A stretch of DNA of 64,000 bases from Treponema sp. (GTDB lineage: Bacteria > Spirochaetota > Spirochaetia > Treponematales > Breznakiellaceae): the NCBI GenBank assembly GCA_009777995.1, contig WRKT01000004.1:1-64000 (forward strand), in the 5' to 3' direction. This document shows positions 49,139-55,331 of the stretch, piece by piece. The notes under the pieces were generated by a model that saw only the letters and a program-made list of their open reading frames with translations, searched no databases and was not told where the DNA came from. The translations under genes were made by a program, and so were the position numbers. Numbering within the stretch: the stretch's first letter is position 1; each line of letters begins with the position of its first letter.

Positions 49139-50296
49139 ATGAACTATCGTAATTACGGCAAGTTGGGGTATCAGGTCTCTGCTCTGGGAATGGGTTGCAT
49201 GAGACTGCCGCGGGTTTATAAAGACGGAGAAAGCAAGGCAGAGATTGATAAGGAAAAGGCAATCGAAATTATCAGGTATGCTGTTGAGCATGGGATCAAT
49301 TACTTTGATACAGCCTTTACATATCATAATCAAACAAGTGAGATAGTCCTTGGCGAGGCCCTTAAAGGCGGGTACCGGGAAAAGGTCAAAGTTGTAACGA
49401 AGCAGCCGCTTGGCGTTATGAAAACGCAGGATGATATTCGCATCAACCTGGAATCAACTTTAAAGAAACTTCAAACCGATTATATTGATGTATACCTTAT
49501 TCACAATATTCAGAAGGGTAATTGGGAAGAGGTAAAGAAACGGGAGATAGTTCGCGAGTGGGAAAAATTCAGAGATGAAGGTCTGATTAAGGCCATTGCA
49601 TTTTCGTATCACGGGAAATTCCCCTGTTTCAACGAAGTTATGGAATATTATCCATGGGATATGTGTCAGGTTCAACAAAATCTTTTGGATATTGATAAAG
49701 AAGTTACTGCCGAGTCCATACGTGTTGCAGGAGAAAAAGGCTGCGCCCTTGTGATTATGGAGCCCCTGCGAGGAGGCGGACTTGTTAACACGCCCCCGTC
49801 TGTTAAGGCAGCATACGATACTTGGCCGGAAGAGCGCTCACCGGCTGAATGGGCATTCCGCCATTTGATTGATTACCCTGAAGTCAGCTGCATAATCAGC
49901 GGGATGACGACACTGGAGCAACTAAAGGAAAACATCGCCATTTTCTCCAAACCTGATGCAGTGCCCGGATGTCTTACAACGAAGGAAAGAGAAATACTTG
50001 CAAAGGTAAAGGATGCCTACGATTCCATTATCTCTATTCCCTGCACAAGCTGCGGCTACTGTATGCCGTGCCCGCATGGCGTTGACATAGTCGAAGTGTT
50101 CTATCGATATAACGAGGGGATGATGTTTAGCGCATTTGACCAGCCGAGGCGCATGTATGCCTTCTCGGACAAGGGAGGGCGAGGCGCTCGCTCCTGTACA
50201 GACTGCGGTGAATGTGTTAAAAAATGCCCGCAGAGCATTGACATACCCAAGGAGCTAAAGATTGCACATAAGGCTCTGGCCGGTTGGATAGAGTGA
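49139..50296 (+). CDS. Aldo/keto reductase with C-terminal 4Fe-4S domain
   Basis: The 385-aa product has an aldo/keto reductase barrel ('LGMGCMRLP' at residues 17-25, catalytic Asp and Tyr in 'INYFDTAFTYHNQTSEIVLGEAL', Lys in 'KVVTKQP', His in 'VYLIHNIQ'). The C-terminal part adds 'CTSCGYCMPCPHGVDI' and 'CTDCGECVKKCPQSIDI', two clusters of cysteines for iron-sulfur centres. This fused type is common in anaerobes and thought to use ferredoxin-linked electrons. The ribosome binding site is GGAGAAG. Its last 42 bases overlap the convergent DnaE-type gene. Confidence 0.9.
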   Translation: MNYRNYGKLGYQVSALGMGCMRLPRVYKDGESKAEIDKEKAIEIIRYAVEHGINYFDTAFTYHNQTSEIVLGEALKGGYREKVKVVTKQPLGVMKTQDDIRINLESTLKKLQTDYIDVYLIHNIQKGNWEEVKKREIVREWEKFRDEGLIKAIAFSYHGKFPCFNEVMEYYPWDMCQVQQNLLDIDKEVTAESIRVAGEKGCALVIMEPLRGGGLVNTPPSVKAAYDTWPEERSPAEWAFRHLIDYPEVSCIISGMTTLEQLKENIAIFSKPDAVPGCLTTKEREILAKVKDAYDSIISIPCTSCGYCMPCPHGVDIVEVFYRYNEGMMFSAFDQPRRMYAFSDKGGRGARSCTDCGECVKKCPQSIDIPKELKIAHKALAGWIE

Positions 50297-53200
50297 CGAC
50301 CGTGCTCCTATGCCTTGCTTCCCCAAGACCTGAATCCGGTTGATTTCAAGGGATACAGCCCCGTTGTCAATCATCACCCTGCCATACACAAGCAGGGGCT
50401 GTTGGTCAAAGAGCAGTTTATTGAAGCGCTCATATACATCAGGGAAGATCACTGTTTCGTACATTGCAGTTTCGTCTTCAAGACTTAAGAAGGACATGGT
50501 TAATCCGTCTTTTGTCCACACGTCCTTTTGCGTAACAGGCCAGCCAATCATTTTCACGCTGCGGCCAATATGATTTTCAATGTGCAGAGCTTTGACCCTG
50601 TTCTTTATCGCCAAGACATCATCCTTCCACAGGGCAAGCGGATGAACATTTCTTAGGAAACCAAGGGCACGGTATTCCTCTTTTAGCTTATTTGATAAAT
50701 CGGGAGCCGGAAGTACAGGAACCGGGGTCTGTATGTTTTCAAATAGGCCGGGGGTTCCGCCTCGGATACTGCCTGTGGAACTGCCGCCGGCTCCGCCCCC
50801 GGTACCGGCCTCCCTCCTCATGCCGAGAAGCCTTCGGGCCTGCAAGGGCCTTGGGGTACTTGCATTATTGATGTTTGAAATACTGTCAAACACCCCCGCA
50901 GGGCAAAGCGCTATAATATCATCCCTGCCAAGCCTAACCCTTTCAGAAAAATCTTCAAGGCTTTTATACTCCCCGCCTCTTTCCCTTTCTGCAAAAATCT
51001 GCTTGGCCCCGGATGATGAAAGCCCCTTGATTGACATCAGGCCTATCACAATATCCCGACCCCTGCCATAATAATGCCAATCCGAAACATTGACATCGGG
51101 GCCGACAGTAAAAAGCCCCATGCGGCGGGCCTCTGCAATATAGGCATGCGGCCTATAATACCCCCCCTGATTGGAAAGAACTGCCGCCATAAACTCGGCA
51201 GGGTGATGAACACGCAGATAGGCCGACTGGAAAGAGACCATGGCATAGCTTGCGCTATGGGGTTTGCAAAAAGAATACCCGTCGAAGGAGAGCATCATCT
51301 CCCAAATCTTCTGCACGGTTTCTTCGCTAACTCCGTTCTTCCTGCAGCCTTCGAAGTACTGCTGCTTATAAACTGCAAGCCTTGCTCCCCCGGCTTTCTT
51401 TGCAATCACCTTTCGCAGCTTATCGGCATCAGCCTCGTTAAATCCCGCAAGGGCAACCGCCGTCTTTGAAACATCCTCCTGATAACATAGAATCCCATAA
51501 CTCTCTTGAAGAATCTCTGCGAGCCTTGGGTGGAGGGGCTCCCATTTCCCCCCTTTTAGGCGCCGCACATATTCGTTTATAAACTTATTTGCCGCAGGGC
51601 GTATTATAGAAGAATGTATAACAATATGATGAAAGTCCCCCTTCCCGGTTTTTCTCTGCAACTGCCTCATCGCGGGGCTTTCGATGTAAAACACCCCCAT
51701 GCTGTCACCGCGTGCAAGGGCCTCAATCGTGGGTTTATCGTCAAGGGCCCTGCTTAACCTGCCTTCAAGTTCGTCATCATTTACATTCTTGATAGCATCC
51801 CTTATAACAGCCAAGCTCCGATTCCCAAGCAGATCGATTTTGACGAAGCCTGCCGCCTCGCTCCCTTCCTTTTCCCATGCAATAAGAGGAAAGCCTTCGA
51901 GGGATTTTTCAACCGGCACATAACGGTTTATCGGCCCCGGTGTTACAACAATACCGCCGCAGTGCATTCCGAGCCCTCGGGGCAGGCCTTCAATTTTCTT
52001 TGCAATTTCAAAAATTTCCTGCCATACAGGATCAATACTGATAATTTCTAAATCCTTGCTTTTTAGAGAGAGCTTGCGTTCAAGTCCTGTAATCTCGGCA
52101 TCCCCAAAACCATAGGCCTTTGCCGTCTCCCTTAATGCGGATCGATAACGGAACATATTATGGTTTGCAACCCTGCCGCAATGGCCGGGCCCAAACTTTT
52201 CGATAACTGCCTTGATTAGATCGTCCCGCTCATCCCAGGCGAAGTCTATGTCAATGTCAGGAGGATCAGGACGTGACGGGTTAAGAAAGCGCTCAAAGTA
52301 AAGGTCATGGCGCAACGGGTCCACATTGGTTATCCCAAGGCCGTAAGAGACAATCGATGCCGCCCCTGAGCCGCGCCCGCAGGTACGCGGCGACATGCGG
52401 ACAATATCATCAATTAATAGAAAATACTCGGAGAAACCCATCTGCTTAATAACGCCGAGTTCATATTCGATTCGCCCAACTTCCCTGTCCGCAAGCTCTC
52501 CGTAGCGTATAACATTTCCGTCATAAACCCGCCGGCGCAGTTCATCATCCACTGACGGGGCGGGGTATGAGGGAAAGACCCAGCCCTTAAACAGATCGTT
52601 ATAAGTGCAGAGGGCGGCAATTTCTTCGGTGCCCTTTACGGCAGCAGGCCACGATGAAAGATGGTGCAGATCCTTTGACAGACGCAGAATCCTGTCAGGC
52701 TCGGCAATTTCACCGGGAGCAAGATTCCCGATAGTTTTCAATAGGCTTATAGCGCGTAACACACGGTGAACCGGGAAATCATCTGCTTCGAGGAAAAGGG
52801 AATCGTCAAGAAAGGTAAGGGGGATGTTTAACTTACGGCCGGCACTTACGGCCCTTATGTCAGAAGGCGTAATCGCTGCATAAAGCCGCCGCACCCGCCC
52901 GTTAAGCTCTGCCAAAACAGCCTCATCCGGGGAAGCCAAAACCAGACCCTCGGCATTCTCCCTGATTAGCGGGAGGGGGTTAAACCCCGACTTATCCTTG
53001 ACTCGCTCCCTATTCCGCTCCGATAAAACTTCGCATAATCTGCTATAGCCTGCGCGGTTTTCAATAAAGCAGTACAATACCTTCCGGTCGCTGCCAATCG
53101 TCAAAGCCGCCCCTATAACCGGCCTGATTCCCCTCTCCCTAGTCTCTTCGAGGATCGAATGCACACCATAAAGGCCGTTTAAATCACAGAAGCCTGCAAC

Positions 53201-53299
53201 CTTGACTCCGAATGTTGCGGCGCGATCCAGCAAGGCTCCCGGCTTATGTACTCCATATAAAAACGAGTAGCCGGAAACAAGGCCGAGTCTAGTTTGCAT
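50255..53299 (-). CDS. dnaE2: DNA polymerase III alpha subunit, DnaE2/ImuC type
   Basis: The 1014-aa product is a C-family polymerase. The PHP domain is degenerate: the N terminus reads 'LGLVSGYSFLYGVHKP' where active PHP domains have HxHxxxS. The palm is complete with 'CGRGSGAASIVSYGLGI' and 'PDPPDIDIDF' (about 340), then 'RFLNPSRP' and 'HCGGIVV'. A C-terminal OB fold ('MSFLSLEDETAMYETVIFPDVY') ends the protein. Shorter than replicative DnaE (about 1160 aa) and lacking its tail, it fits the error-prone DnaE2/ImuC group. The ATG at 53299 overlaps the Y-family gene stop by 11 bp, giving translational coupling. Confidence 0.85.
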   Translation of the reverse strand: MQTRLGLVSGYSFLYGVHKPGALLDRAATFGVKVAGFCDLNGLYGVHSILEETRERGIRPVIGAALTIGSDRKVLYCFIENRAGYSRLCEVLSERNRERVKDKSGFNPLPLIRENAEGLVLASPDEAVLAELNGRVRRLYAAITPSDIRAVSAGRKLNIPLTFLDDSLFLEADDFPVHRVLRAISLLKTIGNLAPGEIAEPDRILRLSKDLHHLSSWPAAVKGTEEIAALCTYNDLFKGWVFPSYPAPSVDDELRRRVYDGNVIRYGELADREVGRIEYELGVIKQMGFSEYFLLIDDIVRMSPRTCGRGSGAASIVSYGLGITNVDPLRHDLYFERFLNPSRPDPPDIDIDFAWDERDDLIKAVIEKFGPGHCGRVANHNMFRYRSALRETAKAYGFGDAEITGLERKLSLKSKDLEIISIDPVWQEIFEIAKKIEGLPRGLGMHCGGIVVTPGPINRYVPVEKSLEGFPLIAWEKEGSEAAGFVKIDLLGNRSLAVIRDAIKNVNDDELEGRLSRALDDKPTIEALARGDSMGVFYIESPAMRQLQRKTGKGDFHHIVIHSSIIRPAANKFINEYVRRLKGGKWEPLHPRLAEILQESYGILCYQEDVSKTAVALAGFNEADADKLRKVIAKKAGGARLAVYKQQYFEGCRKNGVSEETVQKIWEMMLSFDGYSFCKPHSASYAMVSFQSAYLRVHHPAEFMAAVLSNQGGYYRPHAYIAEARRMGLFTVGPDVNVSDWHYYGRGRDIVIGLMSIKGLSSSGAKQIFAERERGGEYKSLEDFSERVRLGRDDIIALCPAGVFDSISNINNASTPRPLQARRLLGMRREAGTGGGAGGSSTGSIRGGTPGLFENIQTPVPVLPAPDLSNKLKEEYRALGFLRNVHPLALWKDDVLAIKNRVKALHIENHIGRSVKMIGWPVTQKDVWTKDGLTMSFLSLEDETAMYETVIFPDVYERFNKLLFDQQPLLVYGRVMIDNGAVSLEINRIQVLGKQGIGARSSLYPTGQSLMCNL

Positions 53300-54482
53300 A
53301 GGAGGCTTGCCCGCCCTGCATTGCCGAGGCCGCAAGGACGAGGGCCCTTGTTATCTTTCCTGCGCCGTAACGGTTCTGTATCTTGTCTATGGCCTTTTGC
53401 AGATTGCGATTTGTGATTTCCTCTTCCGGCTCAAAGAGATCAGGTTGATAGGAGAGGGGTTGCAGCTCCTCAAAGCTAAGACCTATTGAGCGTATGCGAA
53501 TTCTGCGGGTAATTTGCTTTTCGAGTATCGCATAACAGGCCGCAATTATTTCCTTGTCAAGGACAAAGAGCCCCTTGGTTTTTCGGAAGCCCTGCAGCAT
53601 AACGCCGTCACTGTAGAGCACCCCAAGCCGGACACTTTTCATTCCGAGTTTTTCGTTCCTCATCTTTAGGCCGCCGCTTTCGGCGAGGGCCCTTATTGCG
53701 CCCTTGATTGCAATCTCTTCTATTGTGTCTTCCTTAAAGTCGGCCTGACTTTTTATGCGCCTTGCACCGCCTTCAACGCAGGTATTATCGATCCCAAGGG
53801 CCATGTTCCGAAGAAGAGGCCCTTTCTTGCCGAAGAGGGCAACGACCTCGCTGTCCGAGAGGCGGGCGATTTCACCGATTTCCCTAATGCCGGTAACGGT
53901 GGCAGTCCGCAAAAGCCCGGGCCCCATGCCGGGCAGAATCCGTATATCCTGATGATCAAAAAACTCGGCCTCTATTCCCGCCTGCACTTGAATGAGGCCG
54001 ACAGGTCTTATCGCGCGAGTTGCCACCTTGGACACCAGCTTATTTGAGGCCACTGCCGCGGAGGGTTTTATTTCAGTCTTTCCAAGAATGTCTTTTAAGA
54101 CGCGGCTTGAGCAGTCGACCGGCGGGCCGAAGATCCCGGTGGTGCCCGTGATATCAAGGTAGAGATTTCCCCCATTATCGTTTTCCCATACGGGGGCATA
54201 ACGGGATGCAAGCGCCTCGAGTTCCCTATTCATCGCCTCATAGGCTCTTGGGTCTGGTTCGAGCACGGTAAGATCCTTCACCTGCCTTTCGGCAGCAGCA
54301 AGGGCCATGCCGGGACTGAGCCCCTGCCTGATTGCCTCGGGCGAGCAGCAGAGGGCCAAAGACCGCCCCCCGCCGCCGCCTGCAATAACATAGGGCCGCC
54401 CTCGGAGGCTTTTATCTTTTACGGCGGCAACAGCCGTCTTAAAGCCAATAATGTTAAGATGGCAAACTGTCCGCTCCCCCAT
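53289..54482 (-). CDS. Y-family polymerase-like protein lacking catalytic acids (ImuB-like)
   Basis: The 397-aa product aligns along the DinB/ImuB fold. 'CHLNIIGFKTAV' stands where active enzymes have HVDMDCFFAAV, so the first catalytic Asp is Asn and the next is Ile. 'NGGNLYLDITG' stands for SLDEAYLDVT, so both catalytic Asp and Glu are lost. 'LPGMGPGLLRTATVTGIREIGEIARL' (helix-hairpin-helix) and the little-finger domain remain. A C-terminal 'QPDLFEPEEE' could be a clamp-binding motif. Loss of the acids is the known state of ImuB, the adaptor that brings DnaE2 to the beta clamp. The gene sits between DUF72 and the DnaE2-type polymerase genes with overlaps on both sides. Confidence 0.82.
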   Translation of the reverse strand: MGERTVCHLNIIGFKTAVAAVKDKSLRGRPYVIAGGGGGRSLALCCSPEAIRQGLSPGMALAAAERQVKDLTVLEPDPRAYEAMNRELEALASRYAPVWENDNGGNLYLDITGTTGIFGPPVDCSSRVLKDILGKTEIKPSAAVASNKLVSKVATRAIRPVGLIQVQAGIEAEFFDHQDIRILPGMGPGLLRTATVTGIREIGEIARLSDSEVVALFGKKGPLLRNMALGIDNTCVEGGARRIKSQADFKEDTIEEIAIKGAIRALAESGGLKMRNEKLGMKSVRLGVLYSDGVMLQGFRKTKGLFVLDKEIIAACYAILEKQITRRIRIRSIGLSFEELQPLSYQPDLFEPEEEITNRNLQKAIDKIQNRYGAGKITRALVLAASAMQGGQASYAN

Positions 54483-55296
54483 CCTGCACTTCCTTCCCCT
54501 CCGCTTTCAGAATCCCCAACTTTATCAATAACTTCCTTAGGGTCTGCGCGTTTCTTACAGCTTTCCCAAAGGGATGATTGTTAAAATAGACCAAAATCCG
54601 CTGCGCCTGCTCTGTAACCCGCTCAATCCGCCCCGCAATGGCCTCAACCTCGCTGTCCGTGTACAAATAATCGTAGCGGGCATGCTCATCCTTCCCCCAC
54701 CAGGCCTCTTTATTCCGCCCATGCAGGCGGATATAGGCCACAGGAGCCGTAACCACGTCCATTGTGGGCGGAAGACCCTTCAAATCGGGCATATCAAGGG
54801 AAACCAGCGGCACTCCACGGCTTTTCATGCCGTCAATGACCTTCCCGATGCACCAATCGGCCCCCCTGAACTCCACTGCCGAAGGAATCCCCTTGAAATA
54901 ATCAAGCAATTCCCCAAGATATCGCCTGTTTTCGGTGGTATAGTGGAAAGAATAGGGGAACTGGAAAAGAACCGCCTCAAGCCTCCCCGCCTCCAGCATG
55001 GGCTCGATGGCTTTTATGTATGTCTTTGCCTCGGCCTCCCACTGCCCTGAATCCACCTCGTGGGTCAGCGACCTATGGGCCTTAATCGAGAAAGTGAGGC
55101 CCGGCCCCGCATCAAGAAGCATCTTCGCCAGGTTTTGGGCATCCGGCATCCTATAGTAGGAGAAGTTGAGTTCCACCGTCGGGAAAAGCCCCGCATAGCA
55201 GGCAAGATAGTCCTTCTGCTTAGTCCCCTCAGGGTATACCGGCCCCACCCATTCCTTATACGAGTACCCGCTTGTTCCAATGAGAATGTCGATCAT
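54454..55296 (-). CDS. DUF72 (YecE-like) protein
   Basis: The 280-aa product is a TIM-barrel-like DUF72 protein: 'ILIGTSGYSYKEWVGPVYPEGTKQKDYLACYA' at the start, 'VELNFSYYRMPD', 'FSIKAHRSLTHE', 'LFQFPYSFHYT', 'AVEFRGADW' and 'YIRLHGRNKEAWWG', ending in 'ILVYFNNHPFGKAVRNAQTLRKLL'. No proven biochemical activity is known for the family. It overlaps the ImuB-like gene by 29 bp and is the first gene of this operon, with a strong promoter directly before the start codon. Confidence 0.92.
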   Translation of the reverse strand: MIDILIGTSGYSYKEWVGPVYPEGTKQKDYLACYAGLFPTVELNFSYYRMPDAQNLAKMLLDAGPGLTFSIKAHRSLTHEVDSGQWEAEAKTYIKAIEPMLEAGRLEAVLFQFPYSFHYTTENRRYLGELLDYFKGIPSAVEFRGADWCIGKVIDGMKSRGVPLVSLDMPDLKGLPPTMDVVTAPVAYIRLHGRNKEAWWGKDEHARYDYLYTDSEVEAIAGRIERVTEQAQRILVYFNNHPFGKAVRNAQTLRKLLIKLGILKAEGKEVQDGGADSLPS

Positions 55297-55303
55297 ATTA
55301 TAT

Positions 55304-55331
55304 ACTATACACTTGTTTAGTTATTTGTCAA
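55304..55331 (-). promoter_or_regulatory. Consensus promoter of the DUF72/ImuB-like/DnaE2 operon, leaderless
   Basis: On the minus strand TTGACA (55331-55326) and TATAGT (55309-55304) are 16 bp apart. Only 7 bases separate the -10 box from the ATG (55296), so transcription should begin at or within 1-2 bases of the start codon. No ribosome binding site is possible. Confidence 0.75.

Follow-up and report, generated by a model that had tools for sequence, protein, structure and literature searches.

Three overlapping genes on the minus strand of a 64,000-nucleotide stretch of contig WRKT01000004.1 (Treponema sp., assembly GCA_009777995.1; this whole stretch is called the window) form a single operon at window positions 50255-55296, which very probably encodes a DNA-damage-inducible translesion-synthesis system of the DnaE2B-iPolY-RecA type, with a DUF72 protein as an extra conserved component. 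The host is a termite-gut-type spirochaete. DUF72 is the first gene, followed by iPolY, a Y-family polymerase homologue, and by a DNA polymerase III alpha subunit gene of the dnaE2 type (Table 1). An original prediction, made from the nucleotides of the window alone, had described this locus as a spirochaete variant of the ImuABC mutasome in which DUF72 may stand in for ImuA. The coordinates and domains given for the operon are borne out, as is the overlap of 29 nt between the DUF72 and iPolY genes (54454-54482). The placement among known mutasomes has to be changed. The DnaE match (DNA_pol3_alpha, E 1.2e-61) was obtained with the open reading frame 50255-53335 (minus strand), but the ATG at 53299, which gives a 1014-aa protein, is probably a better start than the TTG at 53335. 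With this ATG, the iPolY and dnaE genes overlap by 11 nt.

The polymerase and its Y-family partner

The DnaE protein of the window is an error-prone DnaE2 and not the replicative enzyme. A tree branch with support of 92 parts 30 DnaE1 rows from all DnaE2 rows, and the window copy lies among the latter. (One of the 30 DnaE1 rows, L017 in our numbering of loci, is a wrongly read frame, which has no bearing on the window's place.) The window protein groups with the DnaE2, and not the DnaE1, of same-genus and same-family genomes. In its PHP domain, ligand positions that seven replicative DnaE1 sequences retain are replaced (HxH to R4/G6/V8, D to Y15, and H to L40), while the polymerase aspartates, both those of PDIDIDF and that of KIDLLG, are intact. 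The protein stops after the OB fold and has no tau-binding tail. Thus, the trees and the PHP comparison both uphold the claim of a non-replicative DnaE with a degenerate PHP domain. It is almost inconceivable that this gene is instead the organism's sole, replicative dnaE. The assembly contains no further dnaE, which would fit that reading, but it is only 86.6% complete, and all 11 of the other cassette genomes checked, two of them single-contig and relatives of the same genus and family among them, have a separate DnaE1 (329 to 362 bits) beside the DnaE2 type. Because of this, and because the window copy falls on the DnaE2 side, the absence of DnaE1 is most likely an assembly gap. The second dnaE that a DnaE2 assignment implies is therefore missing from this assembly but present in every other cassette genome checked. 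A second, more divergent DnaE2 lineage is found in three genomes (L071 to L073, in genomes G031, G033, and G028), with neither iPolY nor DUF72 adjoining and with a gene of ~300 aa downstream.

The Y-family protein is a catalytically dead polymerase homologue. In an alignment, six DinB controls keep HxDMDAF...SIDEA where iPolY has Asn10 and Gly105-Asn106, which are exactly the replacements that had been proposed, and the Asp-Glu pair is gone from all cassette iPolYs that were aligned over the catalytic region (n > 70). At its C terminus, iPolY carries QPDLF, which resembles a beta-clamp-binding motif, then LQKAIDKIQNRYGAGKITRA, which resembles the RecA-NT motif family as defined in PMC6511836, and the protein stops just after. 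The first of these motifs is kept as QxxLF or ExDLF in nearly all cassette iPolYs, and the second was found by motif scan in most of them. There is no ImuB-C C-terminal domain in the 397 aa of iPolY. Cassette iPolYs are 387 to 408 aa long (with one of 357 aa), compared with 461 to 511 aa for ImuB, and in a tree they form their own clade outside ImuB, although the split from ImuB is weakly supported (78 to 83). Desulfuromonadales iPolYs (L209 and L175) fall in the same clade as the window protein.

A published classification (PMC12926913) distinguishes ImuA-ImuB-DnaE2A systems from DnaE2B systems, in which the partners of the polymerase are active or inactive Y-family proteins that carry RecA-NT and for which RecA is hence the proposed partner. 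Four ImuABC-linked DnaE2s from Burkholderia, Rhodanobacter, and Streptomyces form a clade (support of 100) that does not include the window DnaE2, which groups, with support of 99 but few references, with a Bacteroidota row from an SRAP-DinB-DnaE2 operon. A Geobacteraceae DnaE2 (L201) is in the same clade as the window copy. Based on tree position, length, and motifs, the DnaE/iPolY pair fits the DnaE2B-iPolY-RecA mutasome type and not ImuABC. The idea of a mutasome-type operon that combines a dead Y-family protein with a non-replicative DnaE therefore stands. Membership in ImuABC is rejected, since the DnaE2 is outside the ImuABC clade and iPolY, which has no ImuB-C extension, falls outside ImuB. 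The genome has a single recA, whose product is the sole PF00154 match in the assembly. There is no imuA in the cassette, and the PF00154 search of the same incomplete assembly found no RecA-like gene beyond RecA. Since iPolY has RecA-NT, RecA is single copy, and no other RecA-like protein was found, ImuA's place is most likely filled by RecA itself and not by DUF72.

DUF72 as a candidate partner of error-prone polymerases

To describe how regularly DUF72 accompanies this pair, we used two sets of loci. We evenly sampled 296 genomes of the phylum; this iPolY type is carried by 14 of them, in 15 cassette copies, and DUF72 adjoins all 15 (in G219, it is cut by the contig end). A DUF72 gene is present in 14 of 14 cassette genomes, compared with 55 of the remaining 282 (Fisher 4.6e-10, with no correction for relatedness). 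The wider set was fetched with the DnaE2 alignment and consists of the best 80 loci by similarity plus spirochaete loci, so its phylum fractions are not unbiased frequencies; its taxon labels are as deposited, and many of the genomes are metagenome assembled. DUF72 is found at 53 of the 73 wider-set loci that have enough flank, which span at least eight phyla; its position among the genes takes at least two forms, and several DUF72 lineages are represented: 26/27 in Spirochaetota, 11/17 in Thermodesulfobacteriota, 6/11 in Nitrospirota, and 2/5 in Acidobacteriota, with one or a few loci each in Myxococcota, Pseudomonadota, Krumholzibacteriota, and Fidelibacterota. The link is thus conserved across spirochaetes, as the original prediction had supposed, but the arrangement is not a spirochaete-specific variant, since the same trio of genes occurs in Thermodesulfobacteriota, Acidobacteriota, Krumholzibacteriota, Nitrospirota, and Fidelibacterota. 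Gaps between the cassette genes are mostly -39 to +108 nt. In the six Nitrospirota cassettes that have it, DUF72 is always downstream of dnaE2, and it is likewise downstream in Marinimicrobia. On a Desulfosarcina ovata plasmid, the annotated order is lexA, DUF72, "hypothetical protein," and DNA polymerase III alpha. Culturable, nonpathogenic carriers of the trio include Desulfosarcina widdelii PP31 and Desulfopila. No DUF72 gene was found near the DnaE2 loci that lack iPolY (L071 to L073) or near ordinary DinB loci (L127 to L132).

Some loci depart from the usual arrangement. L074:4294-5305 is a decayed cassette with an intact DUF72 gene, followed by a 55-residue iPolY remnant and no dnaE2. 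L062:8857-9958, in the same-genus genome G003, has ~1.1 kb between DUF72 and iPolY. At L172:4446-4775, where lexA and iPolY flank DUF72, an internal deletion has left only 109 aa of it, and the polymerase pair is kept.

In a tree of DUF72 proteins, those from spirochaete cassettes are separate from the DUF72s that members of the same order carry outside cassettes, those from Desulfobacterota cassettes form another clade, and those from Acidobacteriota and Nitrospira are distant. These separate lineages indicate that DUF72 was probably recruited to cassettes several times. A phage origin is not suggested, as phage matches are weak, with <35% identity among the matches listed.

DUF72 also adjoins other error-prone polymerases. 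At L254:161-3307, one relative has umuC and DUF72 behind a short umuD-like gene, itself preceded by a divergent S24-like regulator; the regulator and umuD-like assignments are readings of the sequence only. When spirochaete umuC loci were fetched with the UmuC of this locus, DUF72 was downstream of umuC on the same strand in 8 or 9 of 30 (Table 1). The umuC-linked DUF72s form one supported set in the tree, together with one unlinked DUF72 (L285). Enrichment of DUF72 in the neighborhood of polB2 mutasomes has been reported as well (PMC11791011). DUF72 therefore adjoins three error-prone polymerase systems that are unrelated to one another, namely, DnaE2B-iPolY-RecA, UmuDC/Pol V, and PolB2.

The window DUF72 protein is modeled as a TIM barrel (predicted local distance difference test score of 95.1), and its nearest solved structure is TM1631 (1vpq, template modeling score of 0.84), a DUF72 family member with the same fold. 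Among the best 50 fold matches, those below the DUF72 entries are generic TIM barrels, and endonuclease IV and UVDE are absent. A sequence search with DUF72 returned DUF72 structures only, with no homology to endonuclease IV or UVDE. Membership in those families thus has support neither from sequence homology nor from closest fold. For TM1631, residues have been proposed for phosphate holding and DNA wedging, in a paper in which the endonuclease role is itself a prediction (PMC3828134). By sequence alignment, TM1631 residues Asn44, Tyr47, Tyr48, Lys72, Gln114, Arg145, and Arg191 correspond to N44, Y47, Y48, K72, Q112, R144, and R190 of the window protein. The conserved, enzyme-like pocket consists of E42, K72, E142, D168, R190, H192, and N240 and is common to non-cassette DUF72s; Escherichia coli and Bacillus subtilis also have members of the family. 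In keeping with the conserved pocket, with repeated recruitment, and with the presence of SRAP instead of DUF72 in the Bacteroidota operon, the most probable role of DUF72 is that of a lesion-handling enzyme, which would bind, shield, or nick damaged DNA beside the polymerase, and not that of an ImuA substitute. More tentatively, DUF72 may be a general lesion-processing or shielding enzyme of bacterial mutasomes that was recruited independently by at least three translesion-synthesis machines and plays an SRAP-like part.

A candidate damage-response operator

The best and only strong promoter match upstream of the operon is TTGACA-16-TATAGT, whose -10 element lies inside a palindromic operator (Table 1). 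Since the ATG follows ~7 nt after the operator, the DUF72 message would be nearly leaderless. The consensus TACTAWACNNNNGTWTAGTA is found at ≤3 mismatches upstream of DUF72 in 24 of 27 spirochaete cassettes (P ≤ 0.006 each against mononucleotide shuffles), and in 12 of these 24, it is exactly 30 nt before the ATG. The three cassettes without it are the decayed L074 and both copies in G245, a single-contig genome. These two copies (L114 and L115) are near-identical DUF72-iPolY-DnaE2 cassettes, each with its own divergent regulator containing helix-turn-helix and S24 peptidase domains, and they have a different palindrome, GTGATTATTTTAATCAC.

Elsewhere in this genome (G000), the palindrome occurs at two DNA repair genes. 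One site, without any mismatch, immediately precedes a gene for a putative DNA repair protein (TIGR03915; L225, C31:27368-27387), and the other is where a gene matching TIGR03916, "DNA modification/repair radical SAM," starts (L229, C20:32854-32873). It is possible that the cassette and these two genes make up a damage regulon. An operator-like site with 2 mismatches is also present upstream of an 85-aa gene and a 244-aa gene (L230, C24:5476-5495). Neither gene has an NCBIfam match, and they are possibly uncharacterized damage-response genes. In relatives, the palindrome is upstream of lexA in G116 and G087 and upstream of recA in G131 and G116, while the recA of this genome has a 3-mismatch site only. 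A LexA-type gene stands first in 33 related cassettes, many of them non-spirochaete; the S24 peptidase was confirmed by Pfam in four sampled members of this cluster.

Table 1. Features of the operon and its upstream region (window coordinates) and linked umuC loci
Feature	Position	Strand	Basis
DUF72 gene, operon position 1, 280 aa	54454-55296	-	Pfam PF01904, E 2.5e-59
iPolY gene (Y-family), 397 aa	53289-54482	-	IMS, E 8.9e-24; IMS_C, 2e-6
DnaE2 gene (DnaE2B-like, error-prone polymerase alpha subunit), 1014 aa	50255-53299	-	Pfam/NCBIfam, trees, PHP comparison
Asn10 codon, replaces first catalytic Asp of iPolY	54453-54455	-	Alignment with DinB controls
Gly105-Asn106 codons, replace catalytic Asp-Glu of iPolY	54165-54170	-	Alignment with DinB controls
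Beta-clamp-binding-like motif QPDLF, iPolY residues 346-350	53433-53447	-	Sequence motif
RecA-NT-like motif LQKAIDKIQNRYGAGKITRA, iPolY residues 361-380	53343-53402	-	Motif scan
Palindromic operator AACTAAACAAGTGTATAGTA (consensus TACTAWACNNNNGTWTAGTA), 5' end 26 nt before DUF72 start	55303-55322	.	Cross-species conservation
Sigma-70-like promoter TTGACA-16-TATAGT, -10 inside operator	55304-55331	-	11/12 match
umuC-DUF72 loci: L254, L262, L264, L266-L269, L271, L272

Interpretation and comparison with known systems

We propose that a LexA-type repressor would sit on the operator that overlaps the promoter and that DNA damage would lift this repression. iPolY would synthesize no DNA itself but would dock on the beta clamp via QPDLF and on RecA via RecA-NT and would recruit DnaE2, which, having no functional PHP proofreading site, could extend past lesions. 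DUF72 would handle lesions by binding, shielding, or nicking damaged DNA alongside the polymerase.

The ImuABC variant that had been predicted, in which DUF72 would take over from ImuA as a RecA-like subunit and bind the dead Y-family protein, would explain why DUF72 holds the first operon position, like imuA, and why no ImuA-like gene is seen in the genome. It is nevertheless highly improbable. iPolY retains RecA-NT, so RecA itself, which this genome encodes, can take ImuA's place; DUF72 is a TIM barrel with a conserved pocket of the phosphate-binding type and does not have a RecA fold; it is downstream of dnaE2 in Nitrospira and Marinimicrobia, and other cassettes have no DUF72 at all; and umuC genes carry DUF72 although in the known Pol V their products already work with RecA.

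It is unlikely, though less so, that DUF72 is a structural regulatory subunit, comparable to UmuD' or ImuB-C, which is bound to iPolY or DnaE2 and does not act on DNA. The overlaps and short gaps that couple the genes so tightly and the recurrence of DUF72 with several polymerase types are consistent with such a subunit, and the conserved pocket could also serve binding. However, the conserved residues make an enzyme-like pocket that non-cassette DUF72s share, and the presence of at least three DUF72 lineages in cassettes fits a shared chemistry better than a co-evolved interface. We give about the same low weight to the alternative that DUF72 is a co-regulated passenger, for example, an enzyme resembling a UV or abasic-site endonuclease, that shares the promoter but works apart from the polymerase. 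Two relatives (L083 and L253) retain an orphan DUF72 gene of the same clade but have no cassette, and many genomes have DUF72 alone, as would be expected of a passenger. The repeated, order-varying link to DnaE2B, Pol V, and (PMC11791011) PolB2 mutasomes argues against this, as does the complete co-occurrence in the phylum sample.

Several observations weigh against a damage-inducible DnaE2B-type operon with DUF72 as a component. Few reference sequences underlie the DnaE2B assignment, and the one from Bacteroidota sits on a long branch. DUF72 is missing from 20 of the 73 evaluable DnaE2-iPolY loci and is therefore not obligatory for the pair, and DUF72 proteins occur in genomes without the cassette too. 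There is no operator upstream of this genome's own lexA (on contig C43), and operator-like sites number 6 genome-wide, compared with 8 for a reversed-pattern control. Because there is no genome-wide excess, the case for the operator is built on where the sites lie and on their conservation across species. Given the sites at lexA and recA of relatives on one side and the lack of excess and the siteless lexA of this genome on the other, LexA is a likely candidate for the repressor of the cassette.

This type of complex is already known, having been predicted in the literature, while the DUF72 component and the spirochaete operator are new to the open literature that we searched. For DUF72 with LexA, ImuB/DnaE2, or DNA repair, only the PolB2 report (PMC11791011) and the TM1631 prediction papers were relevant, and in openly accessible main texts, we found neither DUF72 in DnaE2 or UmuDC operons nor the spirochaete operator. 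DUF72 is a widespread family without a known function. Its recurrence in this trio across several phyla makes it a candidate lesion-handling partner of mutation-prone synthesis, and the operon link together with the operator shared with repair genes gives it a testable function, namely, a part in tolerating damage or in processing lesions while mutagenic synthesis proceeds. These results widen the described composition of DnaE2-based mutasomes by DUF72 and propose a damage-response operator for cassette-bearing spirochaetes.

The closest known system is DnaE2B-iPolY-RecA (the gbDinB2 type of Timinskas and Venclovas; PMC12926913 and PMC6511836), which has DnaE2 in an operon with a dead, RecA-NT-bearing Y-family protein, no imuA or imuB, a wide phyletic spread, and often lexA in the operon, as does this cassette type. 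It differs in that DUF72 as the first gene, or the last gene in Nitrospira, is unmentioned in the main text of either paper. ImuABC is likewise an SOS-type three-gene cassette of an accessory gene, a dead Y-family protein, and a DnaE2 with a degenerate PHP domain, but the operon described here has no ImuA, no ImuB-C, a DnaE2 of another clade, and an unrelated TIM barrel as its first gene. The PolB2 mutasome neighborhood, with DUF72 and SRAP (PMC11791011), shares the position of DUF72 beside an error-prone polymerase operon, but there the polymerase is of the B family, with iRadA and PPB2, DUF72 is an enriched neighbor, and there is no DnaE2 or Y-family protein. The Bacteroidota SRAP-DinB-DnaE2 operon, on an Adhaeribacter swui plasmid, has a DnaE2 that falls near the window type in the tree, a Y-family partner, and a damage-handling gene in first position, but this gene is SRAP instead of DUF72, and its Y-family partner, with a DinB-like N terminus, groups with DinB.

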